Origin: Comamonadaceae bacterium
GTDB taxonomy: Bacteria > Pseudomonadota > Gammaproteobacteria > Burkholderiales > Burkholderiaceae_C
DNA length: 34,778 bases
Reading direction: 5' to 3'
Assembly: GCA_947449025.1 (NCBI GenBank)
Contig: CANFQF010000015.1
Coordinates: 1-34,778 of the forward strand
A program made the position numbers and the translations under genes. Each line of letters opens with the position of its first letter. The stretch's first letter is position 1. Below the pieces are notes generated by a model that saw only the letters and a program-made list of their open reading frames with translations, searched no databases and was not told the origin of the DNA. Below are positions 3,803 to 31,928 of this stretch, one piece after another.

Positions 3803-4283
3803 TGGCTTTCCTCAAATATGGCGCCAGGCCGCTTCAGCGCAAGGGTTACTTGCCAACCGACGCGGACCACCTCGTTGCGGGTCAATCAGAGTGACGAACG
3901 GGCTGCCAGACCGGAATGCTAGATCCGATTCGATGAATGTCGCCTCCATTCAAACCCGCGGATGAGTGTGTTTGATTTAAATCGCATCCGCAAATTGACT
4001 ACTAGGTGTAGACGGTGAGCTCACTCATGTACCCACCCATGCACGCATCGTTTGGGGCGGCTGCAGCAACGTGACCGCCCGCGACTTCCATCGCCGCTCT
4101 TAGGGCTCCAACAGGCTCTAAACTGCGCAGAGTTGCGAGCAGCGCACGCCCGCGCTTTAATGGCGGTCTCTGCATCGCCGCTTGCACAGTGCGCATCGGA
4201 ACATGGACGCCCGGGCACATGGGCGCAGGCTTTGCAAGGCCAACCTCGCAGTTGGGTACCCATTAAAAAGAAGGAGACATCGC

Positions 4284-5267
4284 ATGAAAAATTCCGTATC
4301 CCGCCGTTCGGTCCTCGTGGGCTCCGCAGCGGCGGCAGTGGGCCTGCCTTCGCTGGCCATCGCTCAGGAAGACTATCCAAACCGCCTCATCAGAATCGTG
4401 CTCCCGGTCGCGCCTGGCGCTGCCACCGACAACCTAGCCCGCCTGATCGCAGAGCAGATCCGGGTGAAGTCCGGCAAGCCGGTCATCGTCGAAAACCGCG
4501 CGGGGGGTGCATCGGGCAATGTGGGCGCGGAGCATGTATTCCGCTCTGCCCCCGATGGCTACACCTTTATGTTCTCGGCATCTGGCCCGATCGCGCTGAA
4601 CAAGCTGGTGATGGCCAAAATGCCCTATGAGCCGGCTGAATTTGCCCATGTCTCACTGGCCGCGCTGATTCCGAACGTGCTCCTGGTGCGCTCGGACTCG
4701 CCGTACAAAACGTTGCGCGATCTCATCGCCGCCGCCAAGGCCAATCCGGGCAAGCTCAATTACGGCAGCGGCGGCCCGGGGACGACCACGCACATCACTT
4801 CAGAGTTGCTCAAGACACTGAGCGGCACCGACATCGTTCACGTGCCTTACAAGGCCAGTGCCGCAGCCGTCACCGCACAAATTCAGGGGCAGACCGACTT
4901 CCAGTTCTCCGAATTGAGCAGCACCTACCAGCACGTCAAGAGCGGCGCGTTGCGGGCTCTGGCCGTGGGCAGCGAGACCCGCGCGCCCTTGCTTCCCGAT
5001 GTGCCCACCCTGTCTGAAACGTTGCCGGGCTTCGTCTCCACCGTCTGGTACGGTTTCGTCGCGCCTCCCAAGACCCCGCCAGCCATCGTCGCGAAGATGT
5101 CGGGCTGGGTGAACGAAATCATGAAGCAGCCCGAGATGGTGGCGAGGCTACAGGCGATCAACATCGTGCCCATTGGAAGCAGCCCTGCCGAGATGAGCCG
5201 CTTTGTTCAGGCCGAACTCGATCGCTGGGGTTCCGTGGTGCGCGCGGCGAAGATCGTGGCCGAGTAA
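4284..5267 (+). CDS. Bug/TctC-family substrate-binding protein with a possible twin-arginine signal
   Basis: AAGGAG at 4271-4276 precedes ATG 4284; MKNSVSRRSVLVGSAAAAVGLPSLAIAQEDYPNRLIRIVLPVAPGAATDNLAR. Confidence 0.92.
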   Translation: MKNSVSRRSVLVGSAAAAVGLPSLAIAQEDYPNRLIRIVLPVAPGAATDNLARLIAEQIRVKSGKPVIVENRAGGASGNVGAEHVFRSAPDGYTFMFSASGPIALNKLVMAKMPYEPAEFAHVSLAALIPNVLLVRSDSPYKTLRDLIAAAKANPGKLNYGSGGPGTTTHITSELLKTLSGTDIVHVPYKASAAAVTAQIQGQTDFQFSELSSTYQHVKSGALRALAVGSETRAPLLPDVPTLSETLPGFVSTVWYGFVAPPKTPPAIVAKMSGWVNEIMKQPEMVARLQAINIVPIGSSPAEMSRFVQAELDRWGSVVRAAKIVAE

Positions 5268-8383: not shown

Positions 8384-9712
8384 TTAAGCCTGCGGGCCAG
8401 CTTCCATTGGCTCGACACCACACCAGTCCAGGATCGTGGAGGCGACTACGGTGACGGCAGACAGGTAGTCCTCCACATCCACCCATTCATCTGTCTGGCC
8501 GTTTTGCGACAAGTCGCCACATAGCGGTCCGAGACCCACCGTCGGGATCCCCTTTTGGACCATCGGGTTGCGGATGTCGCTGGACGTATGCATGGGATTG
8601 ACCTGAGGCACATGGCCGGTGACCTGCTCGATGGCGCTGGCCAATGTCCGATAGAGCGGGTGCTCCGATGACACCTCTGCCCCGGTAACGCCCGACTCCC
8701 AATGCAGTTGCGGCGGATGCTCGCGGAACCAAGGATCGTCTTGACCCAAAGCGGCCAAGGCCTCCTCGACCTGCGCCATGACATGGGCCATCGGCTCAGG
8801 CGGCGCAAAAGAGATCGCGCCACCCAACCAGCAATCGCCGCGCACACGCGAGAGCGAGTCGGTCGGGTCGCAGTTCATGGTGGACACCATGAGGTTGGTT
8901 GATCGGCCCACCGCCTGATGAAGCAAGGGGTGCTGCTGCTCGGCGCCTCGCCGCTCGTCGAGGTGCATGAGTGCCTCAAACACCTTGAAAGCCTTGGCGA
9001 CCGGATTGACGGCCAAATGCGCAAAGGCGGTCTGCAGGGGCTCGGATGTCGGCGGCGGGGCACCCTGGACCCGAATCCGAAACTCCAGCTGTCCGGATGC
9101 GAAGGCCTTGATTTCCTTCATGCCCAGGCCTGATTCAGCAGGGTGCAAATAGATTGCAGCGTCGGCCGTAAGCCCTTGGTGCAACAGTGCGGAGACGCCT
9201 CGCGCATGCCGCTTGCTAGGCGTACTGACCAAAATGACATTCCCCTTGGGCTGCAAGCCACAGGCCTTGAGCAACGCAATCGCCTGGGTGTAGATGGCCA
9301 CGCCGGCCAGGTCGTCGGCAACGCCCCAGCCGTGGATTCGGCCGCCAGTGATCTCCCCTTTGAAGGGGTCATGTCGCCATTCATCCAGACGGGAAAGCGG
9401 TTCGTTGTCTGGATGCCCAAAAAACAGCAGGCTGCGGCCTGCGCCAGGGGTTCCGATGCGCGCCACCACGCATTCGCGCAGGCCAGGCGTCATGGCTTCC
9501 TCGGCGGCAAACTCTTCAACCATGGGAACCGCCTGCGGGTCGTATTGGACCCATTCAACACGGCAGCCCATATCTGCAGACGCTTTTGCAATCGCACGCA
9601 GGACTGCGGCCTCACCGTGTCGGGTCTCGGCGATCAAGTCCTGCAAAAATCCGATGATGCTCTCGCGCTGCCTGGCAAGCGTTTGCGCAATGAGGGGGGC
9701 AAGGTCATTCAT
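8384..9712 (-). CDS. M20 family (ArgE/DapE-type) metallopeptidase homologue with noncanonical active site
   Basis: FGHPDNEP, DPFKGEITGGRIHGWGVADDLAG, and C-terminal HTSSDIRNPMVQKGIPTVGLGP match the M20 fold; canonical EE dyad absent. Confidence 0.82.
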   Translation of the reverse strand: MNDLAPLIAQTLARQRESIIGFLQDLIAETRHGEAAVLRAIAKASADMGCRVEWVQYDPQAVPMVEEFAAEEAMTPGLRECVVARIGTPGAGRSLLFFGHPDNEPLSRLDEWRHDPFKGEITGGRIHGWGVADDLAGVAIYTQAIALLKACGLQPKGNVILVSTPSKRHARGVSALLHQGLTADAAIYLHPAESGLGMKEIKAFASGQLEFRIRVQGAPPPTSEPLQTAFAHLAVNPVAKAFKVFEALMHLDERRGAEQQHPLLHQAVGRSTNLMVSTMNCDPTDSLSRVRGDCWLGGAISFAPPEPMAHVMAQVEEALAALGQDDPWFREHPPQLHWESGVTGAEVSSEHPLYRTLASAIEQVTGHVPQVNPMHTSSDIRNPMVQKGIPTVGLGPLCGDLSQNGQTDEWVDVEDYLSAVTVVASTILDWCGVEPMEAGPQA

Positions 9713-9746
9713 TGCGCGGTCAACTTGTGCGTGGGTTCAGCGGAGG

Positions 9747-10178
9747 TCAGGCCAGTTCGATCAACAGGTCCTGCGCACCCTCCCACAGGACCTTCTTGCC
9801 CAGAGCCGGGAGCTGGTCGAGATTGGAGGTGAGCGTGATGAAGTGGTTGCCCGCGAGCTGGCCTAGCTTGCTGGCAAAGTGCACGCTGCCGTAGGCCAGC
9901 AGGATTTCACACTCGCTGATACCCCCAGGGTAAAGAATCATCTGCCCCGGGGCTGGGTAGCTGGTGTGGTTCTCCCATTTCAAATCAAAGTGCTTGTCTC
10001 CCAAGGGAATCCAGACGCCTTCGCCACTCCAACGCACGTGAATCAGCTTTTGGCGATACGGGAACAAGGAGAGCATGGCGGCGCAGGTCTGCGGCGCCAG
10101 CGTGGTCTCGAGCCGCGCGTCGAAGACAAAAGGACCGGCGGTAATTTTGAGTTGTGGGCAGTGGGGTTGTGAGCTCAT
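9747..10178 (-). CDS. DUF3830 family protein (cyclophilin-like fold)
   Basis: FDARLETTLAPQTCAAMLSLFPYRQKLIHVRWSGEGVWIPLG...HTSYPAPGQMILYPGGISECEILLAYG; start at internal ATG (MSSQPHCPQ). Confidence 0.78.
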   Translation of the reverse strand: MSSQPHCPQLKITAGPFVFDARLETTLAPQTCAAMLSLFPYRQKLIHVRWSGEGVWIPLGDKHFDLKWENHTSYPAPGQMILYPGGISECEILLAYGSVHFASKLGQLAGNHFITLTSNLDQLPALGKKVLWEGAQDLLIELA

Positions 10179-10242
10179 AGGGCGTGCGTGTGGCGGGTGA
10201 GGCGCCCGCAAGGGGCATTAGTGGAATGCAAGCGCCCAGGGC

Positions 10243-11664
10243 TCAGGCCACCCTGGGGCGGGCCATCTCCGGCTTGCCGCAGCGAAGAAATTCCCCCTGG
10301 CCGGAAGCTGCGACGAGCTCACCGTCGCCAATCACGACCTGGCCGCGGGAAAGGACTGTGACGGGCCATCCGTCCACCACCATGCCCTCATAGGGCGTGT
10401 AGTCGACGTTGTGGTGAAGCTTGTCGCTGCGAATGACGCGGCGCTGGTCGGGGTCAAACACCACCACATCGGCGTCGCTCCCGACGGCGATGGCCCCTTT
10501 TCGGGGATGCAGGCCGTACATCTTGGCCGGGTTGGTCGACACCAGTTCGACAAATCTATTCAGACTGATCCGGCCCTTCTTGACGCCCTCGGAGAAGAGG
10601 ATGGGAAGCCGTGTCTCGATGCCTGGAACGCCATTGGGGATCCAGTTGAACGGCGTGCTCTCGCCCTTGAGCATCTTGCCCTTCTCGGACTCGTAGCGAA
10701 ACGGGGCATGGTCCGAGGAAAAGATATGGAACAGGCCGCTGTCCAGGCCGTCCCAGATGACCGACTGGTTCGCCTTGTTGCGCGGTGGCGGGCTGCAGAT
10801 GCACTTGGCACCCTCGAAGCCGGGCTTGGCCAGATCGTCTTCGGTGAGCGTGATGTACTGGGGGCAGGTCTCGGCGTAGATGCGCATGCCACGGCCCTGG
10901 GCCCAATGAATCTGCTCCACCGCCTCACGCCCTGACACATGAACGATGAGGATGGGGACGTCTGCAAGTTCGGCGAAGGTAATGGCGCGGTGCGTGGCTT
11001 CACGTTCGACCAGCATCGGCCTGGCGGCCGCGTGGTAGCGCGGCTCGGTCTTGCCCTGCTCGAGCAAGGTCTCGGTGAGCCACGCGATCAAGTCTGAGTT
11101 TTCGGCGTGAATCATCGCCATGGCACCATGCTGGCGGGCCACCGAAAGAAGCTGCACGACCTGCTTGTCGTTCAACTTCATGTCGTCATAGGTCATGTAG
11201 ATCTTGAACGAGGTGTATCCCTCGCCGATCAAACGCGGGAGATCCACTTTCAAGAGCGTTTCCGTCGGGTCACTTACGATCAGGTGGAAGGCATAGTCGA
11301 TGACCGCCTTGCCTTGGGCGCGGCGATGGTAATCGTCAACCGCGGCCTGCATCGGCATGCCGCGGAACTGGCAGGCAAAGGGGATGACCGTCGTCGTTCC
11401 GCCGAATGCCGCTGCGACTGTGCCCGTGTAGAAATCATCCGCACACTGCGAGCCGTCGCCTGTCGGTTGGTCGAGGTGGCAGTGGCCGTCTACGCCACCG
11501 GGCAGGATCAGGCGCCCTTTGGCGTCGATGGTCTTTTCGCCATCGGGCAGGTTTCGGCCAATCGCCTGGATCTTGCCCTCGCTAATGCCGACATCGGCTT
11601 CAAAAGTATCGGAGGCGGTGACGACGGTGCCGCCGCGGATCACGGTTTCAAATCGAGTCATCAC
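10243..11664 (-). CDS. Dihydropyrimidinase/D-hydantoinase family amidohydrolase
   Basis: LPGGVDGHCHLDQP, AFGGTTTVIPF, YTSFKIYMTYDDM (conserved Lys), MIHAEN, IVHVSG, FSSDHAPF. Confidence 0.92.
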   Translation of the reverse strand: MMTRFETVIRGGTVVTASDTFEADVGISEGKIQAIGRNLPDGEKTIDAKGRLILPGGVDGHCHLDQPTGDGSQCADDFYTGTVAAAFGGTTTVIPFACQFRGMPMQAAVDDYHRRAQGKAVIDYAFHLIVSDPTETLLKVDLPRLIGEGYTSFKIYMTYDDMKLNDKQVVQLLSVARQHGAMAMIHAENSDLIAWLTETLLEQGKTEPRYHAAARPMLVEREATHRAITFAELADVPILIVHVSGREAVEQIHWAQGRGMRIYAETCPQYITLTEDDLAKPGFEGAKCICSPPPRNKANQSVIWDGLDSGLFHIFSSDHAPFRYESEKGKMLKGESTPFNWIPNGVPGIETRLPILFSEGVKKGRISLNRFVELVSTNPAKMYGLHPRKGAIAVGSDADVVVFDPDQRRVIRSDKLHHNVDYTPYEGMVVDGWPVTVLSRGQVVIGDGELVAASGQGEFLRCGKPEMARPRVA

Positions 11665-12395
11665 AGCTCCTGTTTGCGTGGTGCCAGGTAGGCTTGGCTT
11701 TCGATCTCTCGGCGGGCGTCGTTTTGCAGGTTCTGCAGATGACGGCGCATGGCGGCCTGGGCTGAATTGACGTTGCGCTGCATGACCGCGTCCATGATCT
11801 CAATGTGCTCCACATCGCTCTCGGACTGGCGGTGGAAAGGCGATGAGATACGAAACAGGCGGGCCACCACACGCTCGCGCTGAATAGCGCGCGCCAGAGC
11901 CTGGTTTCTGGCCATGGTGGCGAAGAAGGAGTGGAAGCGGTTGTCGAATTGCCAATGCGCCAAATCGTCCTGCGACGACGCAGGCAGTGCCTTCAACTCG
12001 TCGTGAAGGGATTTCAGTTCGGCATCCGGCGCAATGGCTATCGCTCGCTCGATGGCGTGGCACTCCAGCAGCTCTCGGACCTCCATGCACTCGAAGAATT
12101 CACGAATGGATACCGAGCGCACACGGAAGATTCCTTCGGCTGTCTTCTCCAGCAGACCCTCGCCCGCCAGCCGCACGAGGGCCTCGCGCATAGGTGTTCG
12201 GGACACGTTCAACTCTGTGGCGAGTCGGCCCTCGGAGAGGCCCGTTCCACCCAGAATATGCCGGCCGAGGATCAGCGAACGCAGGTGCGAATAGGCCTGC
12301 TCTGCGAGGTTAGGGCTGCCATCCGGGCGTTGCGGAAAATGGCCCGCCGGTCGGGGTTTGTGGTTCAGATCGATTGCGTGCAGCGCCAGTCCCAT
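11661..12395 (-). CDS. GntR family transcriptional regulator, FCD (FadR) subfamily
   Basis: LSEGRLATELNVSRTPMREALVRLAGEGLLE winged HTH; FCD metal ligands visible (DNRFH, EHIEIMDA, MRRHL); 4-bp overlap with hydantoinase start. Confidence 0.93.
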   Translation of the reverse strand: MGLALHAIDLNHKPRPAGHFPQRPDGSPNLAEQAYSHLRSLILGRHILGGTGLSEGRLATELNVSRTPMREALVRLAGEGLLEKTAEGIFRVRSVSIREFFECMEVRELLECHAIERAIAIAPDAELKSLHDELKALPASSQDDLAHWQFDNRFHSFFATMARNQALARAIQRERVVARLFRISSPFHRQSESDVEHIEIMDAVMQRNVNSAQAAMRRHLQNLQNDARREIESQAYLAPRKQEL

Positions 12396-12407
12396 GACTT
12401 GTGTCTT

Positions 12408-13100
12408 TCAGTGGGCTTCATTGATCGAAATTGATTTGTAGGCGCGGCCATAGCGCGCCTCGATCCGTCTTTGGATGATGTCCCACACAGAGGTAAGAAG
12501 CAGATAGTAGAGGGCCGCGACCGCAAACAGCTCGAGGACCAGAAACTTCTCCTGGATCAGGATCTGCGTCTTGCGAAGCAGTTCCTCCATGGAGATGACG
12601 GAGGTGATCGACGTCGTTTTGAGAAGCCCGTTGATGCTGTTGCCAAGCGCCGGAATGATGATCCGAATGGCCTGCGGCAAGACCACGTACATCATGGTCT
12701 GCGCAGAATTGAGGCCGAGTGCGCGCGCGGCACTGCTCTGGCCCGGCGACACACCCAGTATGCCTCCACGGATGATCTCCGACAGGTAGGCCGCTTCGTT
12801 GAGGACCAGGCCCAGAAGTGCCGACTCCAACACCGAGAATTTGATGCCCAGCTGAGGCAAGCCGGTGTAGATGATGATCAACTGAACCAGCAGTGGCGTG
12901 CCGCGGAAGATCCAGATGTAGCCCTTGGCGATGGTCACCAGCCACTTGTAGCTCGAGAGGCGAAGTAGCGAAAGCAGGCACCCCACCACCAGTCCGCCGG
13001 CAATGGCGGCCACCGTCAACCCCAGGGTGACAAATGCTCCCTCCAACAGATAGGGGTTCACCAGGTACTCAAAGAACCCGCCCCAATCCCAGCCTTTCAT
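12408..13100 (-). CDS. Amino acid ABC transporter permease
   Basis: Multiple TM segments, IFRGTPLLVQLIIIYTGLPQ and EAAYLSEIIRGGILGVSPGQSSAARALGLNSAQTMMYVVLPQAIRIIIPALGN. Confidence 0.95.
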   Translation of the reverse strand: MKGWDWGGFFEYLVNPYLLEGAFVTLGLTVAAIAGGLVVGCLLSLLRLSSYKWLVTIAKGYIWIFRGTPLLVQLIIIYTGLPQLGIKFSVLESALLGLVLNEAAYLSEIIRGGILGVSPGQSSAARALGLNSAQTMMYVVLPQAIRIIIPALGNSINGLLKTTSITSVISMEELLRKTQILIQEKFLVLELFAVAALYYLLLTSVWDIIQRRIEARYGRAYKSISINEAH

Positions 13101-13170
13101 TCCGACTCCCTGGCGCTGCTGCGCTTGCGGCTGCAGGCGATCGATCGATCGCCCGCAGACCAGTTCGCTG

Positions 13171-14016
13171 TTACTTGCTCGGGCCGTTGATCTTGATCGG
13201 ATCCTTGTTGGCCAGCAGGCCGTACTCGGTCAGCAGCTTGGCATAAGTACCGTCTTTTTGCATGTCGTTGAACACGCCCACCATGGCGTTGGCAAGCACG
13301 GCGCTCTTGAGAGCCAGGGCCACCGGCGTCGGGAACAGGCCGCTGATGGCGCGGTCGAATTCTCCGCGCTTGGCGTATTCGGCTGCGGTCGAATCGATGG
13401 ACACACTGGCCTCCGTCTGGCCAGCCCGCAGCGCCTGGTAGGCCGTGGCGAAGTTGTCGAAGGTGCGGACGTTGATGCCCTTGAGGCCCTTGGCCTTGAG
13501 CATGTCATCAAGGTCCTTGAGCTTGCGCTCTTCAAAGCCACCGAGCTCGACACCCACGGTGCGGCCGGAAAGGTCTTCAGGCTTGGCGATCTTGAGCGGA
13601 TTGCCCTTGGCCACCGAAATGCTCACCGCTTGGGCTTCATACTGAATCATCTGCATCAGCTTGGCGCGCTCTTCGGTCCAGAAGATGCCGGTGTTGATCA
13701 CGTCCCAGCGGCCGGACTGCAGGCCTGGAACCATCGCGGAGAACTCGACCTTGATGTATTCGGGCTTCAGGCACAGCCGCTTGGCGATTTCGTCACCCAG
13801 GGTAATGCGCATGCCCTTGAGGACGCCCGCGCTGTCGACGAACTGCATGGGCGGCAGGGTCGGGTTGGTGGACATCACCAGAGTGCCTGGCTTGACCAGT
13901 TCAGAGGCTGGCACCTTGGGTGCGCAGGTTTGCGCAGCGGCCAGGCCGGTCAGCGCCAAGGATCCAGCCAGGACCAGGCATGCACGAAGGTTGAATCGAA
14001 AAACGCTCTTTTTCAT
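13171..14016 (-). CDS. Amino acid ABC transporter substrate-binding protein (family 3)
   Basis: Signal peptide then LVMSTNPTLPPMQFVDSAGVLKGMRITLGDEIAKRLCL...FSAMVPGLQSGRWDVINTGIFWTEERA; AAGGAG-type RBS. Confidence 0.93.
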   Translation of the reverse strand: MKKSVFRFNLRACLVLAGSLALTGLAAAQTCAPKVPASELVKPGTLVMSTNPTLPPMQFVDSAGVLKGMRITLGDEIAKRLCLKPEYIKVEFSAMVPGLQSGRWDVINTGIFWTEERAKLMQMIQYEAQAVSISVAKGNPLKIAKPEDLSGRTVGVELGGFEERKLKDLDDMLKAKGLKGINVRTFDNFATAYQALRAGQTEASVSIDSTAAEYAKRGEFDRAISGLFPTPVALALKSAVLANAMVGVFNDMQKDGTYAKLLTEYGLLANKDPIKINGPSK

Positions 14017-14051
14017 CGCAGGGCTCCTTTAGGTAATACAGAAAATGACCA

Positions 14052-14972
14052 TCACTGACCGGGAATCGATTCTTTGAGTTGAAGCCGATCGAGCATCGCC
14101 TTCAGCTCGACGCTATCGGCGACTGGCAAGGGCAAGCGCGGAGGACGGGGCTTGCCAACCGGCAGGCCCATGTAATCCAGGGCCACCTTGCTGGCTGCCA
14201 CATAGCGATGGCCCCCGACCATCTTGACCAAGGGCAGGATCTGTTTGTAGAGGGCGAGCGCAGCCGGCTGGTCCTTGTGGTCGGCGACCAGCTCGAACAA
14301 GCGCGCGGAGTCGCGGGGCAGGAAGTTGGAGCACACCGCTACCCAACCCTGCGCACCGAGCCAAAACGATTCATATCCCAGGATGCCGGCGAAGACCGTC
14401 ATCTTGTCGCCGCACAGCTCGATGATGTCCCGTACCCGGGTCACTTCGAGAGTGGACTCCTTGATGTAGCGCACGTTGTCGATCTGCGCGAGCCGAGCCA
14501 CCACATCCGGCGTGAGGTCCACATTGGCCGTCGCGGGATTGTTGTAGACCATGATCGGCATGGACACGGCCTCACCGATCCTTCGGTAGTGCGCGAACAG
14601 CTCGTCGGCCGTGGGTGTGCTGTAGTAAGGCGGGATGACCATGACGCCGTCGGCTCCCATGCTTTCGGCCAAGCGGGCCTTCATCACGGCCTCGTCAGTC
14701 CACTCGGCGCCTGTACCGATCAATACGGGCACCCGCCCCGCCGCCTGGCGAACACACACCTCGATCACTTCCTCTTGCTCCTGCAGCGTCATGGAGAGGA
14801 ATTCGCCCGTGCTGCCCAGGGGAATCAGGCCATGGATGCCTTGCTCAATCTGCCAATCGACCAAGCGCCGCAGCGCAGGAATGTCTACCGACTTGCCGTC
14901 TTCGGTGAATGGGGTCACCAGCACGGTGAAGGTGCCGCGCCAGCTCTTGCCTGTGTTTTTTGTCGGACTCAT
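14052..14972 (-). CDS. Dihydrodipicolinate synthase family lyase/aldolase
   Basis: PLGSTGEFLSMTLQEQEEVI, VMVIPPYYSTPTADELFAHY, MVYNNPATA, YIKEST (Schiff-base Lys); ATG at 14972 (MSPTKNTG) preferred over the 404-aa ORF-track extension. Confidence 0.92.
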   Translation of the reverse strand: MSPTKNTGKSWRGTFTVLVTPFTEDGKSVDIPALRRLVDWQIEQGIHGLIPLGSTGEFLSMTLQEQEEVIEVCVRQAAGRVPVLIGTGAEWTDEAVMKARLAESMGADGVMVIPPYYSTPTADELFAHYRRIGEAVSMPIMVYNNPATANVDLTPDVVARLAQIDNVRYIKESTLEVTRVRDIIELCGDKMTVFAGILGYESFWLGAQGWVAVCSNFLPRDSARLFELVADHKDQPAALALYKQILPLVKMVGGHRYVAASKVALDYMGLPVGKPRPPRLPLPVADSVELKAMLDRLQLKESIPGQ

Positions 14973-15026
14973 GGAAGGACTCGCAGAGGAGGTCTTTGAA
15001 GAAGGTTTCGCTTGGCCCAGAGGCAA

Positions 15027-15044
15027 TATACAGGCAGTATACTG
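15027..15044. promoter_or_regulatory. Candidate GntR/FCD operator in divergent promoter
   Basis: TATAC-AGGCA-GTATA dyad (15027-15041) overlapping a perfect 10-bp palindrome CAGTATACTG (15035-15044), between the divergent 14972(-) and 15117(+) genes. Confidence 0.5.
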
Positions 15045-15116
15045 ATCGTGCAACGGCCGTATTCTTAGACGTTTTCTGGTTTTCTCAAATCCCAGGCCCT
15101 CTCGCAGCCCCTGCCC

Positions 15117-18053
15117 ATGCGAATCCAACACGCCAGCGCCAGACCCGCCGACGTCCCCGTTGAAATCACCTTTGACGGCAGGCGCTTGTCCGCGCTGGCG
15201 GGGGAGACGATCGCCGCCACACTCCAAGCGCACGGAATCCAGGCGTTGCGCAGCACGCGAAAGCAAGAACCGCGCGGGCTTTATTGCGGAATGGGCGCTT
15301 GCTTCGATTGCGTCGTGACCGTCGACGGCCGGGCGGGCGTTCGCGCCTGCCTGGAGAAGGTGCAGGATGGCCAGACCGTGCGGTCACAGATGCCCGCAGG
15401 AACCGCGCAGGATCCGCTTGCGCCCCTGTGCGCCGAACCCACCAGCGCAGAGCCGCGGGCAGAGACGGTGGACGTGCTGGTGGTCGGCGCAGGCCCAGCG
15501 GGCCTGGCTGCTGCGGTGAGTGCAGCGCGTGCGGGCGCCAGCGTGACGGTACTCGACGAGCGACCGCAAAGCGGCGGGCAATACTTCAAGCCACTGGCAC
15601 CCTCCCACACAGCCACCCGGCCCGCCGACCGGCAGTTCGCCGAGGGCCTGGCGCTGACCCAAACCGCACTGAATCTGGGCGTGCGCATTCTTCAGGATGT
15701 CACCGTATGGGGCGCCGACACGCCCCAGGAAGTGATTGCCATGGTGGACGGCGCGGAGACGGTCTTTCGCCCTGGCCAGCTGATATTGGCCACCGGCGCC
15801 TACGAGCGCCCGGTTCCGTTCGACAAATGGACCCTCCCCGGGGTGATGACGACCGGAGCAGCCCAGACCCTGGTGCGGGCGTACAAAGTCTCGCCGGGCA
15901 AGAAGGTGGTGATTGCCGGCAACGGCCCGTTGAACCTGCAACTCGCAGTGGAGATGGTGCGCGCAGGGGTGCAGGTCGCTGCGGTGCTGGAGTCAGCGCC
16001 TGCCCCAACCCCCGGGATGTGGCGCACGCTGCTCAAGGCTTGGCGCTTCGCGCCTGATTTGATGGCGCAGGGCCTGGGCTACATCGCCGAGCTGCGCGCG
16101 CACGGTGTGTCCGTGCGGTGGGGCTATGGCGTGGTTCAGGCGCAAGGCGACGGCCGCCTGCAGGGCGTGGTGTACGCGCCGCTGAACGGCTCTGGAGAGC
16201 CCGATCTGTCGCGCGCAACGAGGACGGAGGCAGACACCCTCTGCCTGGGCTACGGCTTCATTCCCTCCACAGAGCTGGCTCGAGCCCTTGGATGTGCCCA
16301 CCGGTTTGTCGACCGGCACATGGGCTACCTGGAGACCGAGACCACACGCGAGGGTCGTACGAGCCTGCCCCACGTCTTTGCCATAGGCGACGGCAGCTCC
16401 CTGGGTGGTGCGCGGGTGGCGCTGGCGCGGGGCATGCTGGCAGGGGCGGTCGCCGCCGACGCACTAGGCAAACGCGTCGATGCGGCAAATGTGCGCGACG
16501 CGGCCTCGGCACTCGACCGGGCGCTGGCGTTCCAGGAGGCACTGTGGGCGCTTTTTCAGGCGCCTCCTGTCCGTCTGCAATCCCTCCCCGATTCGACTGT
16601 GGCGTGCCGCTGCGAAGAGGTGAGCCTGGGCCAGTTGCGCGAGGCAATTTCCGAGGGCTTCGACAGCCTGGGCCCGCTCAAGCGCATGACCCGCCTGGGC
16701 ATGGGTCGCTGCCAGGGGCGCTACTGCGCCTGCACCGCTGCCAAGCTGCTGCACGAGATCCATGGCAAGCCCCGGGAGCCAGAGCAGTTGTTTGCACCTC
16801 GCCTGCCCGCCAAGCCGGTGCCCGCGGGCTGCATGGCATTTGAAAAACCAGAATGGGGTGGCCACAAACGATCGATCACACCGAACATCGCACGCCCCAC
16901 CGAGACGCAGCCGCTGCCACCGCAGCAGGCCGAGGTGCTGGTGATCGGTGGCGGCGTCATGGGGTCCTGCCTGGCCTACTACCTGGCCCGCGAGGGACGC
17001 GACGTGCTGGTGGTCGAGCGCGACGAAGCCAATATGCAGGCCTCGGGCGCCAACGCTGGCAGCCTGCACGTGCAGCTGCTCTCGTTCGATTTCGGTGCCA
17101 AGGCCGAAGCAGGTGGCGGACCTGCTGCGCAGACCCTGCCCCTCGGCCCTGTCTCGGTCCAACTGTGGCGACAACTGGAAGCGGAAACCGGCAGCGACTT
17201 TGAGATCTCGACCACGGGCGGACTGATGGTGGCCGACACGCCCGCAGGCATGAAGTTTCTTCAGGCCAAGGCCGCACTGGAGCGCCAATTCGGGATTGAA
17301 AACGAAATCATCGACGCGGCCACGCTACGAACGCTGGCCCCTGCAATTTCCCACGAAATGCTAGGCGCAGAGTACGCCCCGCAAGAGGGAAAGATCAACC
17401 CGCTCAAAGCGACATACGGCGTCCTGAAAGCGGCGCAGGCCGCAGGCGCTCGATTCATTCGCGGTGCCAGCGTGGAGCATTTGGAGAGGACCGGAACGCG
17501 CTGGCGCGTCAAGACCTCTCGGTGCGTGGTCGATGCCGGCACGGTCATCAACGCCGCGGGCCCCTGGAGCCGCGAAGTCGCAGCAATGGTCGGGGTGGAT
17601 CTGCCGGTTCACAGCGCACCCTTGCAGATGATCGTCACCGAAACAGCGCCCGCGATGGTCAAGCAGCTGGTGGCGCACGCAGACCGTCACCTGAGCCTCA
17701 AGCAGGCCGCCACGGGCGGGCTGATCGTGGGCGGCGGCTGGACTGCCGCTTACGACGATCGACGGCGGTTCAACACCACCCTGCGCCAAAGCGTGGAGGG
17801 CAATCTCTGGGCGGCCCGGCGCGTGGTTCCACAGCTGCAGGGGCTGCGCGTGCTGCGAACCTGGGCTGCGATGAATATCAACATCGACGGCGCGCCCATC
17901 CTGGGCGAGGCACCGGGCGTGACGGGCTTCTACAACGCCGTCACATCAAATGGGTACACGCTCTCGCCCGTGGTCGCCCGCATGACGGTCGACCTGCTGG
18001 TCGGACGCTCCACGCCATTTGACCCCCAACCCTACTCGCTAGCGCGCTTCTGA
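15117..18053 (+). CDS. Three-part fused flavoprotein dehydrogenase: HcnA-like 2Fe-2S + HcnB-like FAD/NAD(P) with BFD-like 2Fe-2S + HcnC/DadA-like FAD-dependent amino-acid dehydrogenase
   Basis: One 978-aa [70 protein letters not shown]...[17 protein letters not shown]; second [30 protein letters not shown] and [11 protein letters not shown]. Confidence 0.93.
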
Positions 18054-18070
18054 GAATCAAGGATCCGCTC

Positions 18071-18799
18071 ATGATTGAAATCGTCAACGTCAACAAATAC
18101 TTCGGCGGCTTCCATGCGCTGAAGAACGTGTCGGCCAGCATTGCCCGCGGCGAAGTGGTGGTGGTCTGCGGGCCCTCGGGGTCGGGCAAGTCAACGCTCA
18201 TCAAGTGCGTCAACGGTCTTGAAAAAATCAATAGCGGCTCGATCAGCATCAACGGCAAGACGTTGGGGGCCAAGGACACAGACATGTCACTGCTGCGAGC
18301 CCAGGTGGGCATGGTGTTTCAGAACTTCGAGTTGTTCCCCCACCTGACGATTCTTCAGAACCTCACATTGGCCCAGCGCAAAGTGCTCAAACGCTCGGAG
18401 GACGAGGCTGTGGCCAAAGGCGAGAAGCTGTTGGATCGGGTCGGCCTGCAAGCCCACACGCACAAGTACCCTGCGCAGCTCTCGGGTGGGCAGCAGCAGC
18501 GCGTCGCGATTGCCCGGGCCCTGGCGATGGACCCGATCGCGATGCTGTTTGACGAGCCAACCTCCGCGCTCGACCCCGAGATGATTCAAGAGGTGCTGGA
18601 AGTCATGGTCACCCTCGCGCGGGAGGGTATGACCATGGTGTGCGTCACCCACGAAATGGGTTTTGCCAGGCAGGTCGCCGATCGGGTGATCTTCATGGAC
18701 GAGGGAGAGATCGTTGAAGACTGCACGAAGGACGACTTCTTCTCCACCACCCGGTCGCAACGCTCACAGCAGTTTCTCTCGAAGATCCTCAAGCACTGA
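18071..18799 (+). CDS. Amino acid ABC transporter ATP-binding protein
   Basis: GPSGSGKST Walker [47 protein letters not shown]. Confidence 0.97.
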
Positions 18800-18850: not shown

Positions 18851-19822
18851 TCACTGCTTTTGAATTCCCGCCCGCTGGATCACCTCACCCCAGTGCCGGG
18901 TCTCGCTCGCCAGCCAGTCCTGGCCTTGCGCAGGAGTGCCAGGGCTCGGCTCGATGTTCATTTCAATCAACTTCTGCCGGGTCGGCGCGTGATTGAGGGC
19001 GGCCACGACCTCGCGGTTGAGGCGCTCCACCACCTCGCGCGGGGTACGAGCCGGCACACCCAGCGCGTTCCAGGACGAGGCCAAGAGGTTCGCCACGCCG
19101 GCTTCGCGGGCCGTGGGCACCTGGGGCAGGGCCGGGCTACGGCGGGTGCCGGTAATCGCCAGCGCCTTGATCACGCCGCCCTTGATCTGCGGCAGCACGG
19201 GGCTGAGCACCTCGGCGGCCACGTCGATCTGGCCGCCGCGCAGAGCGGTGACCACCGCCGGCGTGCCGTTGAACGGCACCACTTGGGCGTCAAGACCGGC
19301 CGCACTCTTGAACAATTCAGCCGCCAGGTGCTGCGTGCTGCCAATGTTGATGCTGCCGATATTGAGCTTGCCGGGGTTGGCGCGGGCCCAGGCCAACATC
19401 TCGGGCAGGCCGCTGAAGCGGGACTCACCGCTGGTCACCAAGACCAGGTCAAAGGTCCCCAGCAAGGACACCACGCTGAAGTCGCGGGCCGGATCAAAAG
19501 GCAGCTGCTTGAACAGACCGGCGCTCACCGCGTTGGCGTTAGACATCAGCAGCAGGGTGTGGCCGTCTGGGTCGGCCTTGGCCACCAGGTCGGCAGCAAC
19601 GATACCGCCGGCGCCGGGCCGGTTATCGATCACGACCGCCTGGCCCAGGGTCTCAGCCATACGCTGTGCCACGGTGCGGGCCGTGAGGTCGGCCACGCCA
19701 CCAGCGGCGAAGGGCACGACGATCTTGAGGGCTTTGCTCGGGAAGGCCTGGGCCCGGGCGGCTATGGGCAATGCACAGGCCATTGAGGCGGCTGCAAGGG
19801 CAAGGGCGTGGCGGCGTTTCAT
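18851..19822 (-). CDS. Bug/TctC-family substrate-binding protein
   Basis: MKRRHALALAAASMACALPIAARAQAFPSKALKIVVPFAAGGVADLTARTVAQRMAETLGQAVVIDNRPGAGG; ATG 19822 chosen to give a clean signal peptide. Confidence 0.93.
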   Translation of the reverse strand: MKRRHALALAAASMACALPIAARAQAFPSKALKIVVPFAAGGVADLTARTVAQRMAETLGQAVVIDNRPGAGGIVAADLVAKADPDGHTLLLMSNANAVSAGLFKQLPFDPARDFSVVSLLGTFDLVLVTSGESRFSGLPEMLAWARANPGKLNIGSINIGSTQHLAAELFKSAAGLDAQVVPFNGTPAVVTALRGGQIDVAAEVLSPVLPQIKGGVIKALAITGTRRSPALPQVPTAREAGVANLLASSWNALGVPARTPREVVERLNREVVAALNHAPTRQKLIEMNIEPSPGTPAQGQDWLASETRHWGEVIQRAGIQKQ

Positions 19823-20022
19823 GCTTTGAGTCTCCTGATTTGAAGAGGGACGGCAAAGGCCTGCCGAGGCAGGCGCGTTCGCCGAGGCCGCACGATTGTG
19901 GCATTGGTCCATGGCGATGCCACAATGAGGTCGTTTGACCGAATCGAGCCAAGGAGGGGCCGGCCAGACCTCAGGGGCCAGCGGACCTCATTCCAAAGCC
20001 AGACCGTCGTAAGGGGAAGCGG

Positions 20023-21247: not shown

Positions 21248-22219
21248 TCAGGGCTCCATTTTCAGCCTGCCATCCTTGATCATTTTGCCCACGCGCGCAT
21301 GCTCGGCCCGAATGTGGCGGGCAAACTCCTCTGGCGTGCCGCCGACCACTTCAGCGCCCTCGCTAGAGAGCGACTCGCGCACATTGCCGCCGCGAAGCGC
21401 CTTAACGGACTCAGCGTTGAGGCGGCGAACAATCTCCGCCGGCGTGCCCGCCGGCACCAGCAACCCGTACCAGGAGCCCGCCTCGTAGCCTGTCAGCCCC
21501 AACTCGGCCAGCGTCGGCACGTCCGGCAACAGGGCCGATCGCTTGGTGCTGGTGATAGCCAGCGCCCGCAGTTTGCCGGCCTTGATCTGCGGGGTGATGG
21601 CCACCACGCTGGAGAACATGATGTCGACCTGACCGGCCAGCAGGTCCGACATCGCCGGTGCGAGGCCCTTGTAGGGGACATGGGTCAGGTCCACGCCGGC
21701 CATCGTTTCGTAGAGCGCGGTCGCGATATGGGCGGAGCTGCCGTTGCCGTTGGATGCAAAGTTGATGCGGCCGGGGTTGGCCTTGGCGAAGGCCGTCATT
21801 TCCGGCAGGCTCTTGTAGGGCGTCTTCAGGTTGACGGCCACCACTGACGGGGCGGAGGCCAGAAGCACCACGGGCGCGAAGTCCTTGAGCGCGTCGTAGC
21901 TGATCTTGGGAACGATGTGCGGATTGACCGCCAGGCTGCCCACGCCACCGAGAAAGAGGGTGTAGCCATCGGGCGCAGCCTTGGCGGCCATGTCTGCGCC
22001 GATCACGCCACCGGCGCCCGCGCGGTTGTCGACCACCACTGGTTGCCCGAGGGCGCTCGAGAGCTGGGTTGCGACCGCGCGGGCCACCGTGTCATTGCCG
22101 CCCCCGGGGGCAAAGGGGACGATGAGGCGAAGCGGCCGGCTCGGATAGTCCTGCGCTTGGGCCACAAGGGGTTGGACGATCAGAGTCAGGGCAGACAGCA
22201 GGAGGGAGGCGAGCTTCAT
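21248..22219 (-). CDS. Bug/TctC-family substrate-binding protein
   Basis: MKLASLLLSALTLIVQPLVAQAQDYPSRPLRLIVPFAPGGGNDTVARAVATQLSSALGQPVVVDNRAGAGG. Confidence 0.93.
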   Translation of the reverse strand: MKLASLLLSALTLIVQPLVAQAQDYPSRPLRLIVPFAPGGGNDTVARAVATQLSSALGQPVVVDNRAGAGGVIGADMAAKAAPDGYTLFLGGVGSLAVNPHIVPKISYDALKDFAPVVLLASAPSVVAVNLKTPYKSLPEMTAFAKANPGRINFASNGNGSSAHIATALYETMAGVDLTHVPYKGLAPAMSDLLAGQVDIMFSSVVAITPQIKAGKLRALAITSTKRSALLPDVPTLAELGLTGYEAGSWYGLLVPAGTPAEIVRRLNAESVKALRGGNVRESLSSEGAEVVGGTPEEFARHIRAEHARVGKMIKDGRLKMEP

Positions 22220-22390
22220 GGGCGTTCCTTGGCGATCGCCCGCCACAAACAACGGGCAATTCGGCGATGGTATACCAAGGGATCCCAGTGGCTGAGGAAC
22301 GACCCAGCTTCCCGTCAAGGCTCTTTCGAGAGGGGCGCGAGGAGACCGGGTGATGGGTGCGCGCGGGGTCGCTGGCGCGGGCCCGACCGC

Positions 22391-26213: not shown

Positions 26214-27092
26214 TCAGGAGGCGCTGATCTTGCGGCCGTTGAGCGGCTGCACCGGGCGGGCGTTGAGCTTGAACGGGAAGCTGTCGATCATCTCGCGCTG
26301 GATGCCGATCGGCGACTTCATGATGAAAAACTTCACGCCTTCGGTGCAGGGCGGGGTGGTGAGCGAACCCTCGTAGGCGTAGTGGGCCAGCGACTCGGGC
26401 AGCAGGGTGGCCGGGTTGATGGACACCGAGGCAACCTCCACTTCCGGGCCCTCTTTGGCCGGCATGTTTTTCCAGATCGACCACAGGGTGCGGTTCTGGA
26501 CGGCCGATTCCCGCATCAGCACGCCGACCACCGCCAGCTTGCCGTCGGCGCTCTTGTGAACCATGTGCGTCACCATGGCCATGGGCTTGCCATCGATCTG
26601 CTCCTCGCTGGGCCGGTGGAAGTGGAACTGCACCAGCTCATAGGATTCGTTGCCCACCTTCAGCGTGCTGCCCGGCGGCACGTTCACCTGGATGGTGTGG
26701 CCGTTATTGAGGACTTTGAGCACGCCCGGCTTGTAGTCGGCCTTGAGCGTGGTGGTCGACTTTTCAAAGGGTCCGACGATGTTCAGCGGCGACTGCGACT
26801 TGCCAGCAGCGCAGGTGGGGAACTGCTTACCCCAGTTTTCCGGGCCCATTTCGCCCTCATACTCCCAGTGCGGCGCACCACTGCTGTGGCTGCTGCCCTT
26901 TCCCTTCTCGGCGATGGCGTGGACCACCTCTTCGAGCTTTTGCAGGGTCTCTTCCTGCTCCTTGATCTGCTTGGTGGCCTTGGCCAACCTGGTGTCCAGG
27001 TCCTTGGTCTTGCCAGTGTTGACGATTGACAAGGTGATCACCATCGCGAACAGGCTGGCGACGATGCCCCCCAGAAGGATTCGAATGAACAT
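26214..27092 (-). CDS. Membrane-anchored alpha-class carbonic anhydrase
   Basis: HWEYEGEMGPENWG, QSPLNI, LVQFHFHRPSEEQIDGKPMAMVTHMVH, YEGSLTTPPCTEGVKFF; N-terminal TM MFIRILLGGIVASLFAMVITLSIV. Confidence 0.93.
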   Translation of the reverse strand: MFIRILLGGIVASLFAMVITLSIVNTGKTKDLDTRLAKATKQIKEQEETLQKLEEVVHAIAEKGKGSSHSSGAPHWEYEGEMGPENWGKQFPTCAAGKSQSPLNIVGPFEKSTTTLKADYKPGVLKVLNNGHTIQVNVPPGSTLKVGNESYELVQFHFHRPSEEQIDGKPMAMVTHMVHKSADGKLAVVGVLMRESAVQNRTLWSIWKNMPAKEGPEVEVASVSINPATLLPESLAHYAYEGSLTTPPCTEGVKFFIMKSPIGIQREMIDSFPFKLNARPVQPLNGRKISAS

Positions 27093-27238
27093 GCTGACCT
27101 CAAGAATTCTCAAATGGCGCCGAGTCCAAAGACAACGGCGAGGGATTGTCTCCTGCGCCACCACCCGGTTGAACGGAGGCGCGACAACAGACGCTGCCAA
27201 AGTATGATCGGTTCATCCCGGAACGGCTTGAGTGCAAC

Positions 27239-28534: not shown

Positions 28535-28634
28535 CGCATCTCTTATTCTTACAAATTCCTGAGCCTTGATGCGCATCCCGCGGGGTGCACAGAGGGCACC
28601 AGGAACCGGCCTGCGGGCCAGGGAGCGTCGGGCA

Positions 28635-30458
28635 ATGAGAGCTTTGTACGAGCTGTTGAGAGCGCCACTGCGCCATGTCGCGGTGTTTTCGCTCTGCATG
28701 AACCTGCTGTTGCTGGCACCCACGCTCTTCATGCTGCAGGTCTTTGACCGGGTTCTCGTCAGCCAGAGTACGGACACATTGTTGGCCTTGTTGGTAGGCA
28801 CTGGCATTGCCCTGCTGATGTACTTCGGCCTCGACCTGCTACGCCAGAGGCTGCAGGCGGTCATAGGCCAGGCTGCCGGCGATGCGCTCACCCCTCTGGC
28901 GGTGCAGGCCCTGGTAGCCGAGGGCAGCCAGGGGCGGCCGCCGTCCGAGGGCCTGCGCGATGTGGCGGCACTGCGGGCCGCCATGGCCTCGCCCGCGGTG
29001 GTGGCCCTATTTGATGCGCCCTGGCTGCTGTTTTACCTGGCGCTCATTACCGCGGTGCACCCTTTGCTGGGACTCAGCGCCTGCCTGGCCGCCCTGTGTA
29101 TGGCTGGCCTCACCCTCGCCAGCCACCTGGCTACCCGCAAGCAGATGCCGGCGGTGCAGGAGGCCTCGGCCGCTGCGGCGCGCTTCCTCGATCGGTGCCT
29201 GGCGAATGCCGAGGCGGCACAGGCCCTGGGCATGGTGCCGGCGTTGCTTACCCGCTGGCGCACGCGGCTCGATCAGCTGCTCGCGCTGCAGGCGCCGCTG
29301 AACCGACGCACCAGCCTGGCAGCCGCCGCCGGTCGCAGCCTGCGCCAGGCGGTGCAAGTGGTGATGCTGGCAGTGGGCGTCTGGCTGATTCTGGGCGGGC
29401 ATGTCTCACCCGGCGCCACGCTGGCCTGCACGATCTTGCTGGGGAGAGCACTCGCGCCAGTGGAGTTGCTCATTGCGCAGTGGAAGGTACTGGCCGACGC
29501 GCGCGCCGCAGCCACCCGCCTGGCCCGGCTGATGCAAACGCAGGCCCCCGAGGCGGCGATGGCCTTGCCAACCCCGCGCGGTGAGCTCCAAGTGCAGCAA
29601 CTGACCTGGCGCATTCCCGGCACCGAGCGCCTGGGCCTGGCGGGCGTTTCGCTCGCCCTGAGCGCCGGCGAGGTGTTGGCGGTGGTGGGGCCCAGCGGCG
29701 CGGGAAAGAGCACGCTGATGCGGGTGCTGTCGGGTCTGTGGAAGCCCACTGCGGGCCATGTACGGCTCGATGCCAGCGACCTGGCCCAGTGGCCGCGTGA
29801 GCAACTAGGTCCCTGGCTGGGGTATCTGCCGCAGGAGGTGGCGCTGTTTCCGGGCACCGTGGCTGAAAACATCGCGCGCTTGGGAGAGGTCGATAGCGAG
29901 GCGGTGGTGGCGGCGGCGCGGCGTGCCGGTGCACACGAGATGATCCTGGCCCTGCCCCAGGGCTATGAAACCCCGCTGGCCCCGGGCTCGCCACTGCCCT
30001 CGCCCGGGCAGCGCCAGCGCATCGGGCTGGCCCGGGCGCTGTATGGCGACCCGAAGCTGGTGTTGCTCGACGAGCCCAACGCCAACCTCGACGGCGAGGG
30101 CGAACAGGCGCTGGCCGAGGCGCTCAAGTCGCTGCGCGGGCAGGTGACCACCGTGGTCGTTACCCACCGCAGCCAACTGCTGCAGCAGGTGGACAAGCTA
30201 CTGGTGCTCGAAGGCGGGCGGGCCGCGCAATTCGGACCGGTCGCCGAGGTGCTACGCGCCATGCAACAACGCAGTGCCGGAACGCCCAATGTGGTGGCCA
30301 TGCCGGTGGCCGGCGGCCCGGCATCGCCACCGCCTTCACCGGCCACCTCACAGGCCAATTCGCATCCCACTTCCTCTGCTTCAGAGCCGGGCTCGGGTGG
30401 CGCGGTTGTGCCCTCGGCCGCGCAGGTGGCCGACCGGATCGGCAAGGGGGGCCTATGA
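28635..30458 (+). CDS. Type I secretion system permease/ATPase (PrtD-like)
   Basis: [49 protein letters not shown]; Walker [21 protein letters not shown]; start could also be ATG 28569. Confidence 0.92.
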
Positions 30459-31798
30459 ACAGCGCAGCGATGAATCACCGAATGATGGGTCACCCTTCTG
30501 TTCAGGGCCAACTCGCGCAGGCGGCGCGCCTGGGCCGTATCGGGCGCTGGATCCTGTTGCTGGGCCTGCTGCCCCTCTTGGCCTGGCTCACTCTGGCGAC
30601 CCTGGCTTCGGCGGTGGTGGCCACTGCCCACGTGAAGGTGGACCTGGACCGCCGCCCAGTGCAGCACATGGAGGGCGGGACAGTGCGCGAAGTGATGGTG
30701 CGCGACGGCCAGCAGGTCGAAGCGGGCCAGCCACTGCTGGCGCTGGGTGACGTCGCGGTGGATGCAGACGCACAGCGGCTGGAGTTTCGCGCGCTGTCAG
30801 AGCGGGCAGGCGCCGCCCGACTGGAGGCCGAGGTCGCTGGATTGAGCTCGCTGCGCTTTGCGCCGGAACTGGTAGGCGCTGGCGAGGCGAATGCGGACTT
30901 CGCCGCCCAGCTGGCCAAGGAACGGACATTGTTCGAGACGCGTCGCCGCACGGTGCAAAACCAGGTCCAGCTGCTGCGTGCGCAGGGCGAGCGCATCGAG
31001 CAGGAAATGACGCACCTGCGTGCCCAGATCGCGGAAGGGGAGCAGTCGCTGCGGCACCAGGTCGAGGAGCTCGACCGCAACCGCGCGCTGGTGCAGGAGG
31101 GCTTCATCGCCAGCACCCGAATTTCGCAGCTGGAATCGGGCGTCGCCGACTACCGGGCGAAGCTGCAGGAGCGCCATTCGGAGATGGCACGGGCCGGCCA
31201 GCGCCTGATCGACACCCGCCTACGCGCCCAGGCCCTGGAGGGCGAATACGGCCAACAAGCCAGCGACCTGCTCAAGGCCGCCACCGGGCGCATCACCGAA
31301 ATCGACCAGGAGTTGCGCAAGGTACGCGACGCCGCCCGGCGTCAGGTGGTCACCGCGCCGGCTGCAGGCACGGTGATCAACCTGCGCTTCAACGGCGCGG
31401 GCGGCGTGATCCAGCCGCGCGAACCCATCGCCGACATCGTGCCGCGCAACCCGCGCTTGATCGTGGAGGCGCAGATCCGCCCGGAGGACGTGGCGCGGGT
31501 GCATGCCGGGCAGCGCGCGCGCGTGCGCCTGACCGCCTTCAACACGCTCACCACGCCGATGGTGGAGGGCCAGGTGATCTATGTCTCGGCCGACCGCTTG
31601 GCCGACCGCAATACGCAGCAATCGTTTTACGTGGTGCAGATCGAGGCCGACCCGGCCTCGCTGCGCCAGGCCGGCGACCTGACGCTTCAGGCCGGCATGC
31701 CGGCCGAGGTGTTCATCGAAGGCGAGGCGCGCACACCGCTGCAGTACCTCGTCGAACCCGTGCTGCAAGTGATGCGGCACGCCGGGCGAGAGCGATAG
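30455..31798 (+). CDS. HlyD-family type I secretion periplasmic adaptor (PrtE-like)
   Basis: 4-bp overlap with T1SS ATPase; VQHMEGGTVREVMVRDGQQVEAGQPLLALGD, long coiled coil, VTAPAAGTVINLRFNGAGGVIQPREPIADIVP. Confidence 0.94.
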   Translation: MNSAAMNHRMMGHPSVQGQLAQAARLGRIGRWILLLGLLPLLAWLTLATLASAVVATAHVKVDLDRRPVQHMEGGTVREVMVRDGQQVEAGQPLLALGDVAVDADAQRLEFRALSERAGAARLEAEVAGLSSLRFAPELVGAGEANADFAAQLAKERTLFETRRRTVQNQVQLLRAQGERIEQEMTHLRAQIAEGEQSLRHQVEELDRNRALVQEGFIASTRISQLESGVADYRAKLQERHSEMARAGQRLIDTRLRAQALEGEYGQQASDLLKAATGRITEIDQELRKVRDAARRQVVTAPAAGTVINLRFNGAGGVIQPREPIADIVPRNPRLIVEAQIRPEDVARVHAGQRARVRLTAFNTLTTPMVEGQVIYVSADRLADRNTQQSFYVVQIEADPASLRQAGDLTLQAGMPAEVFIEGEARTPLQYLVEPVLQVMRHAGRER

Positions 31799-31804
31799 AA
31801 AGCC

Positions 31805-31825
31805 GCGGCGCCGTCAAGGCGCCGC
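31805..31825. other. Strong stem-loop downstream of the adaptor gene (possible terminator/attenuator)
   Basis: GCGGCGCC-GTCAA-GGCGCCGC perfect 8-bp stem starting 7 bp after the adaptor stop; no T-tract. Confidence 0.5.
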
Positions 31826-31888
31826 CCCGAGAGGCCGCCTGCGCCACAGGCACCAGGCAGGCCACAGCAGTCCAGTCGTTGCAGTTTC

Positions 31889-31921
31889 GCAGTACCTCGA
31901 AGTCACAGCAGTACGCAGTAC
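31889..31921 (+). repeat. Short direct repeats GCAGTAC x3
   Basis: GCAGTAC at 31889-31895, 31908-31914 and 31915-31921 (last two tandem); additional GCAGT at 31867 and 31881. Confidence 0.5.
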
Positions 31922-31928
31922 AGGCCGG

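Follow-up and report, generated by a model that had tools for sequence, protein, structure and literature searches.

Which compound would be degraded by a gene cluster that combines an amino-acid importer, an HcnABC-type dehydrogenase, a DHDPS-family lyase and several hydrolase-type proteins? We analyzed this question in a Ramlibacter soil bacterium with a 93%-complete genome; the window referred to here is one whole contig of 34,778 bp. Positions 8384-18799 held nine intact genes in two arms off one divergent promoter, and the domain and curated-model scans thereby confirmed the gene set and two-armed layout that an earlier note on this DNA had described. As discussed below, the cluster probably imports and degrades an unusual amino acid plus its ring-closed or capped forms. 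The features are as follows.

8384..9712, minus strand: noncanonical M20 protein (ArgE/DapE-like), 442 aa (PF01546, E=1.4e-20; alignments A5 and A7; structure model)
9747..10211, minus strand: DUF3830 protein, cyclophilin-like fold (PF12903, E=2.7e-29; alignments A2 and A6; structure model)
10243..11664, minus strand: D-hydantoinase/dihydropyrimidinase-family cyclic amidohydrolase (TIGR02033, NF009941; metal-ligand motifs)
11661..12395, minus strand: GntR-family regulator, FCD subfamily (PF00392, PF07729)
12408..13100, minus strand: polar amino-acid (PAAT) ABC permease (PF00528; TIGR01726 above cut-off)
13171..14016, minus strand: family 3 solute-binding protein, SBP_bac_3 (PF00497; alignment to AncQR 4ZV1 and relatives)
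14052..14972, minus strand: DHDPS-family Schiff-base lyase (PF00701, E=3e-65; alignments)
15026..15042, no strand: tandem operator-like site ATATACAGGCAGTATAC (RTATAC-N5-RTATAC) in the divergent promoter
15117..18053, plus strand: single-chain HcnA-HcnB-HcnC-type amino-acid dehydrogenase with flavin and iron-sulfur centres, 978 aa (Fer2_4, Pyr_redox_2, Fer2_BFD, SO_alpha_A3, DAO)
18071..18799, plus strand: polar amino-acid (PAAT) ABC ATPase (PF00005; best NCBIfam match GlnQ, 306 bits, under cut-off)

The intergenic gaps in the locus ranged from −4 to 70 bp, with a 4 bp overlap between the hydantoinase start and the GntR stop, and the divergent gap was 144 bp. Four of the nine genes encode the GntR regulator and the polar-amino-acid ABC importer, which is complete and has a single permease. 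The families are known and their combination is new, its unusual parts being the single-chain HcnABC-type dehydrogenase, the noncanonical M20 protein and DUF3830; searches of open-licence papers found no description of this combination. Elsewhere on the contig, we observed four TctC-type tripartite tricarboxylate receptor genes (425-1555, 4182-5267, 18851-19912 and 21248-22318), a eukaryotic-type (alpha) carbonic anhydrase domain (26214-27200, minus strand) and, at 28566-34776 on the plus strand, ABC and HlyD genes of a type I secretion-like kind, with a large, nearly Pfam-less frame downstream of them, possibly a secreted protein.

Next, we analyzed the conservation of the locus. A lack of synteny in relatives had been set beforehand as the finding that would refute the reading; the core was, however, widely syntenic, and the whole block was syntenic in two Ramlibacter MAGs of the same genus, with 91-97% protein identity. 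This core, consisting of the amino-acid ABC importer, the DHDPS-family lyase and the single-chain HcnABC-type dehydrogenase, was found in dozens of genomes of alpha-, beta- and gammaproteobacteria. The fused dehydrogenase was present in 3 of the 37 genomes searched of the genus and was widespread elsewhere. Loci were gathered via the dehydrogenase (the best 80 genome loci), so its own count is true by construction. They belonged to Comamonadaceae (Ramlibacter, Rhodoferax, Variovorax, Polaromonas and Pseudacidovorax), Azospirillum and other Rhodospirillales, Rhizobiaceae, Aureimonas, roseobacters and Granulosicoccus. Unannotated plasmid loci were read by their longest ORFs, and the L035 row of alignment A4, a shadow frame, was left out.

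Gene company was counted in those 62 loci whose flanks extended for 6 kb or more on each side. The dehydrogenase was accompanied by the lyase in 55, the permease in 51, the binding protein in 48 and the ATPase in 36 of them. The hydrolase-type partners were the hydantoinase (43 loci), any M20 protein (34), DUF3830 (27) and a phosphotriesterase-family protein (11), which combined in many ways; an aspartate-dehydrogenase-like protein occurred in 5, and several loci contained the core without any hydrolase. Since the hydantoinase, M20 and DUF3830 were each absent from some loci whose core was intact, the ring-opening step appears to be an optional input. The earlier note's ring-opening hydantoinase is, thus, retained as a family member (see below), although not as an obligatory component. 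The phosphotriesterase-family hydrolase was a recurrent member of the cluster, located at L126:8082-9107 and in 13 further loci, including those of roseobacters, Devosia and Granulosicoccus. Gene order and strand varied by group while the set was constant, which speaks for a common function and against the recent descent of all loci from a single block. The Ramlibacter and Variovorax groups were separate in the dehydrogenase tree and Azospirillum fell within the same larger clade, in line with exchange between classes. The outer genes (TctC-type receptors and a beta-lactamase-family protein) were not kept alongside outside Ramlibacter, so the conserved unit corresponds to 8384-18799. Judged from these comparisons, the locus is one co-inherited, divergently transcribed catabolic unit, far beyond chance adjacency.

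The divergent promoter was then analyzed. ATATAC-N5-GTATAC at 15026-15042 was the sole such site in the window and appeared in 0 of 100 shuffles. Across 36 divergent promoters, GTATAC was observed 64 times against 1.15 expected from mononucleotide shuffles. The tandem RTATAC site was present in 24 of the 27 loci with a window-type GntR gene compared to 1 of the 48 without it (Fisher p ~3e-15, inflated by related loci). This co-occurrence supports a predicted operator through which one GntR regulator presumably governs both arms. A FadR-type operator, TNGTNNNACNA, was also considered and was absent, the shared motif actually being RTATAC.

In family 3 binding proteins (LAO/GlnBP), an Arg residue holds the alpha-carboxylate and an Asp residue holds the alpha-amine of the ligand. 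The best alignment of the binding protein was to the ancestral Gln/Arg-binding protein AncQR (4ZV1), in which R117 and the Asp of the SID motif aligned with AncQR residues. The Arg motif was found in 60 of 60 relatives and the Asp motif, under a strict pattern, in 53 of 60. As both residues are kept, the imported molecule likely carries a free alpha-amino acid head, and import of a free hydantoin or N-carbamoyl compound is not favoured. The substrate suggested earlier, a cyclic amide/imide or an N-carbamoyl-type D-amino or imino acid, is thus only partly retained: the locus is a co-inherited catabolic unit, but these residues disfavour the free hydantoin or N-carbamoyl form as the imported compound.

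The 978-aa dehydrogenase is a single chain that fuses parts resembling HcnA, HcnB and HcnC (gamma, alpha and beta). The fusion frame was uninterrupted in two relatives with 91-92% identity, indicating that it is not an assembly artefact. The protein contained CX4CX2CX12C at 57, CXCX32CX4C at 497, GXGXXG at 124 and 611, and an R-X-W FMN motif (RTW at 914-916). The Fe-S and nucleotide motifs were found in 85 of 85 relatives and the R-X-W-A-x-M/L-N pattern in 75 of 85. Such motifs were described by Watanabe et al. for D-HypDH, opine dehydrogenase and L-ProDH (PMC4575208), with a spacing of X15-20 for the second 2Fe-2S cluster, which is shorter than X32 here. D-HypDH, OdhABC, HcnABC and archaeal L-ProDH resemble the window protein in both 2Fe-2S, two ADP-binding and R-X-W motifs; however, they are heterotrimeric, with separate subunits (alpha4 beta4 gamma4), whereas the window protein is one chain. 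The single-chain enzymes form their own subfamily, approximately 25-40% identical to the split forms. By analogy with the latter, electrons should pass to the respiratory chain without peroxide formation.

The lyase kept the Schiff-base Lys171 and Tyr143, with Thr148 at the position of DapA Arg138. It scored 204.7 bits against the curated DapA model, just below the cut-off of 206.15. Other lyase homologues were present in the genome, the best being 34% identical.

The hydantoinase scored 574.3 bits with TIGR02033 (cut-off 393.25) and 802 bits with NF009941 (cut-off 647), and its metal ligands were complete (motifs DGHCH, FKIYMTY, HAEN, HVSG and SSDH); on these matches it is a true member of the family. 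It is the only close hydantoinase of the genome, the next match being 25% identical. No canonical carbamoylase or hydantoin racemase was found in the window, and the cluster contained no recognised carbamoylase. A single gene of the genome scored above the TIGR01879 cut-off (carbamoylase/allantoate amidohydrolase type); it was on another contig (G000:C52, L191:5540-10632), near a polysaccharide-deacetylase-family (PuuE-type) gene and a further GntR regulator of the FCD subfamily. Clusters for hydantoin utilisation (hyu) and for ergothioneine/ureides share hydantoinase-family ring opening with this locus, in which, by contrast, oxidation of an amino acid and a lyase step (C-C or C-N) are added.

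The M20 model (pLDDT 90) matched the fold of 3PFO and ArgE/DapE. As in these deacylases, most metal-site residues were kept (H100, D102, D134, E193 and H375, of which H100, D134, E193 and H375 were invariant). However, the catalytic Glu and the adjacent metal Glu were replaced by P165-S166-K167-R168, thereby giving a conserved Ser-Lys(-Arg). P165-S166-K167 was invariant in 15 of 15 relatives, mostly with Arg or Lys next, while DEE or EEE occupied this site in 3PFO (EEE) and in two other M20 types of sister loci (L055 and L088). Conservation indicates that the protein is functional, and loss of the general base indicates that it is not an ordinary deacylase; with the usual catalytic base missing, it may not be a hydrolase. 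The M20 gene had been suspected to be an accidental neighbour because it is missing from plasmid loci of Azospirillum, Agrobacterium and Rhizobium; its presence in 25 of the 80 loci ruled this out. We also observed a NadX-like aspartate dehydrogenase homologue adjoining the M20 variant at L077:1725-2474, L093:13408-14331, L102 and L115.

DUF3830 scored 102.4 bits against a PF12903 cut-off of 26, and comparison with relatives suggests that translation begins at Met 10178. The conserved residues included H58, R60-W61-S62-G63, E80, T83, E102 and N122-H123. One model reached pLDDT 84.8 (the other four were poor) and best matched 3KOP, followed by the Pictet-Spenglerases KslB and McbB, a likeness suggesting iminium or ring chemistry. 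Beyond this cluster, DUF3830 was next to a dihydroorotase-like gene in Azospirillum, whereas in R. johnstonii its neighbours were amidohydrolases together with a gene of the Asp/Glu racemase family. Skermanella had AllB, acetamidase and a ring-opening amidohydrolase beside it, Paraburkholderia had HydA with Asp/Glu-racemase-family genes on its flanks, Paracoccus had AllE and a Zn-dependent hydrolase, and haloarchaea had hydrolases of the Zn-dependent or M20 type. A phylum-wide sample yielded six genomes (L174:4145-6576, L172, L173, L176, L187 and L188) in which it was directly beside a PuuE-like (polysaccharide-deacetylase family) gene and a UraD-HIUase fusion, in a urate-to-ureide operon. Within 6 kb, a ureide/amide hydrolase or the dehydrogenase cluster was present in approximately 12 of the 16 loci detected in this sample and none in 4, a frequency that carries no background rate; a constant association with cyclic amidohydrolases was therefore too strong a statement. 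A full-text search of open-licence papers gave zero matches for DUF3830. These features permit a joint reading, possible although on the unlikely side, of an undescribed pathway where DUF3830 represents a novel family of cyclic ureide/amide enzymes, for example a hydantoin/allantoin racemase, an isomerase or an imine-forming enzyme on a Pictet-Spenglerase-like cyclophilin fold, and the M20 protein is re-tooled for a non-deacylation reaction.

The reading that we tentatively prefer, at a little short of an even chance, is a single catabolic module under joint regulation that acts on an alpha-amino acid which proteins do not normally contain and that comprises import, oxidation, lyase cleavage and hydrolase inputs. 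The ABC importer would take up the free amino acid, and the fused dehydrogenase would oxidise its alpha-carbon-nitrogen bond to a 2-oxo acid or imine, with FAD, FMN and 2Fe-2S centres passing the electrons to the respiratory chain. The lyase would form a Schiff base with this product, followed by C-C or C-N cleavage. The simplest such step would be a retro-aldol conversion of a 4-hydroxy-2-oxo acid to pyruvate and an aldehyde or oxo acid. A 4-hydroxy-2-oxo acid is a typical aldolase substrate in the DHDPS superfamily; nevertheless, retro-aldol cleavage is just one among the reactions of these lyases, which counts against this step. On chemical grounds, a 4-hydroxy-amino acid substrate would account for the lactam- and lactone-type hydrolases and make an aldehyde dehydrogenase unneeded. 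The hydantoinase, DUF3830 and the M20 variant would supply the open form of this amino acid from its cyclic forms (amide, ureide, imide or lactone) or its N-substituted forms, the phosphotriesterase-family hydrolase would play the same role in other genomes, and the GntR protein would switch both arms through the tandem RTATAC site. Supporting this module are the co-inherited core with its modular hydrolases, the Arg and Asp of the binding protein, the full dehydrogenase motifs, the operator co-occurrence, the lyase with Lys171 and Tyr143 and without the DapA Arg138, the sole complete-ligand hydantoinase, and DUF3830 beside cyclic-ureide enzymes elsewhere. Counting against it are the carbamoylase-free cluster, the hydrolase-free core loci and the M20 protein without its usual base. 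Variovorax grows on AHLs, and some loci contain a lactonase-like phosphotriesterase; homoserine/AHL degradation was therefore considered, gained no direct support, and survives solely as an example of a 4-hydroxy-amino acid substrate.

Alternatively, the dehydrogenase may produce a cyclic imine, which the lyase would open and deaminate in the manner of pyrroline-4-hydroxy-2-carboxylate deaminase acting on another ring. In favour of such catabolism of a cyclic imino acid, both enzyme superfamilies match the D-hydroxyproline pair and the dehydrogenase has the R-X-W FMN motif common to D-HypDH and L-ProDH (PMC4575208). The cofactor motifs, however, also occur in opine and L-proline dehydrogenases, and the D-hydroxyproline analogy of the earlier note weakened further at the lyase. 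Compared to HypD from the S. meliloti pSymB hyp cluster, which was identified by gene order and a racemase-like protein because the record lacks annotation, the lyase was 29% identical over 232 residues (E=1e-15). Its active-site motifs (GSTGEF, YNNPATA and IKESTLE) differed from those of HypD (GSMGDW, YNSPYYG and FKEFGG), and it was nearer to DapA-type sequences. In addition, aldehyde dehydrogenase was absent from the annotated recurrent flanking families, and we consider a cyclic imino acid unlikely.

An opine-like secondary amine appears more unlikely still. The dehydrogenase would then split an N-(carboxyalkyl) amino acid, with the hydantoinase and M20 protein taking lactam or acyl forms. 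This enzyme type includes OoxAB/NoxAB and the opine dehydrogenases of P. putida (PMC4575208), and the clusters are commonly carried on rhizobial, agrobacterial and azospirillum plasmids. However, we observed neither ornithine cyclodeaminase nor arginase among the recurrent families, nor any other gene that would follow up opine cleavage. Furthermore, to our knowledge, a DHDPS-family lyase plays no part in the known opine pathways.

It is distinctly improbable that the locus joins two unrelated functions, amino-acid oxidation and ureide nitrogen salvage by the hydantoinase, DUF3830 and M20. Core loci without hydrolases do exist, as does DUF3830 with allantoinase-type genes in the absence of the core; nevertheless, there is a single divergent promoter with a single conserved operator, and the hydantoinase accompanied the core in 43 of 62 loci despite the shifting gene order.

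Pyrimidine degradation, with the hydantoinase as a housekeeping dihydropyrimidinase, would suit the dihydropyrimidinase family names and the sole such gene of the genome, but it is scarcely credible, given that the domain and curated-model scans of the cluster showed no dihydropyrimidine dehydrogenase or beta-ureidopropionase and that the hydantoinase keeps to the company of the lyase and dehydrogenase. A standard hydroxyproline cluster carrying additional genes is equally hard to credit. The S. meliloti hyp and P. aeruginosa lhp clusters resemble the locus in enzyme classes, having a DAO-type dehydrogenase and DHDPS-family lyase, an ABC importer and GntR-type regulation. In contrast, the locus has no epimerase or semialdehyde dehydrogenase, adds the hydantoinase, DUF3830 and M20, and has a one-chain dehydrogenase. 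The epimerase had been reported missing from the window, and this absence extends to the 93%-complete genome, where the proline-racemase family (PF05544; 4-hydroxyproline epimerase) gave no match. Likewise, no alpha-ketoglutarate semialdehyde or aldehyde dehydrogenase was found among the window genes scanned, as also reported, and the annotated recurrent flanking families included neither proline racemases nor aldehyde dehydrogenases. Together with the distant, HypD-unlike lyase, these results ruled out a known hydroxyproline cluster, in agreement with the earlier note.

The cluster suggests that soil and the rhizosphere offer a widespread nutrient so far overlooked by bacterial annotation. 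DUF3830 gains a concrete biochemical setting among ring-closed ureides and amides, and the M20 variant represents a conserved subfamily that lacks the textbook catalytic residue and that annotation pipelines would wrongly call a deacylase.
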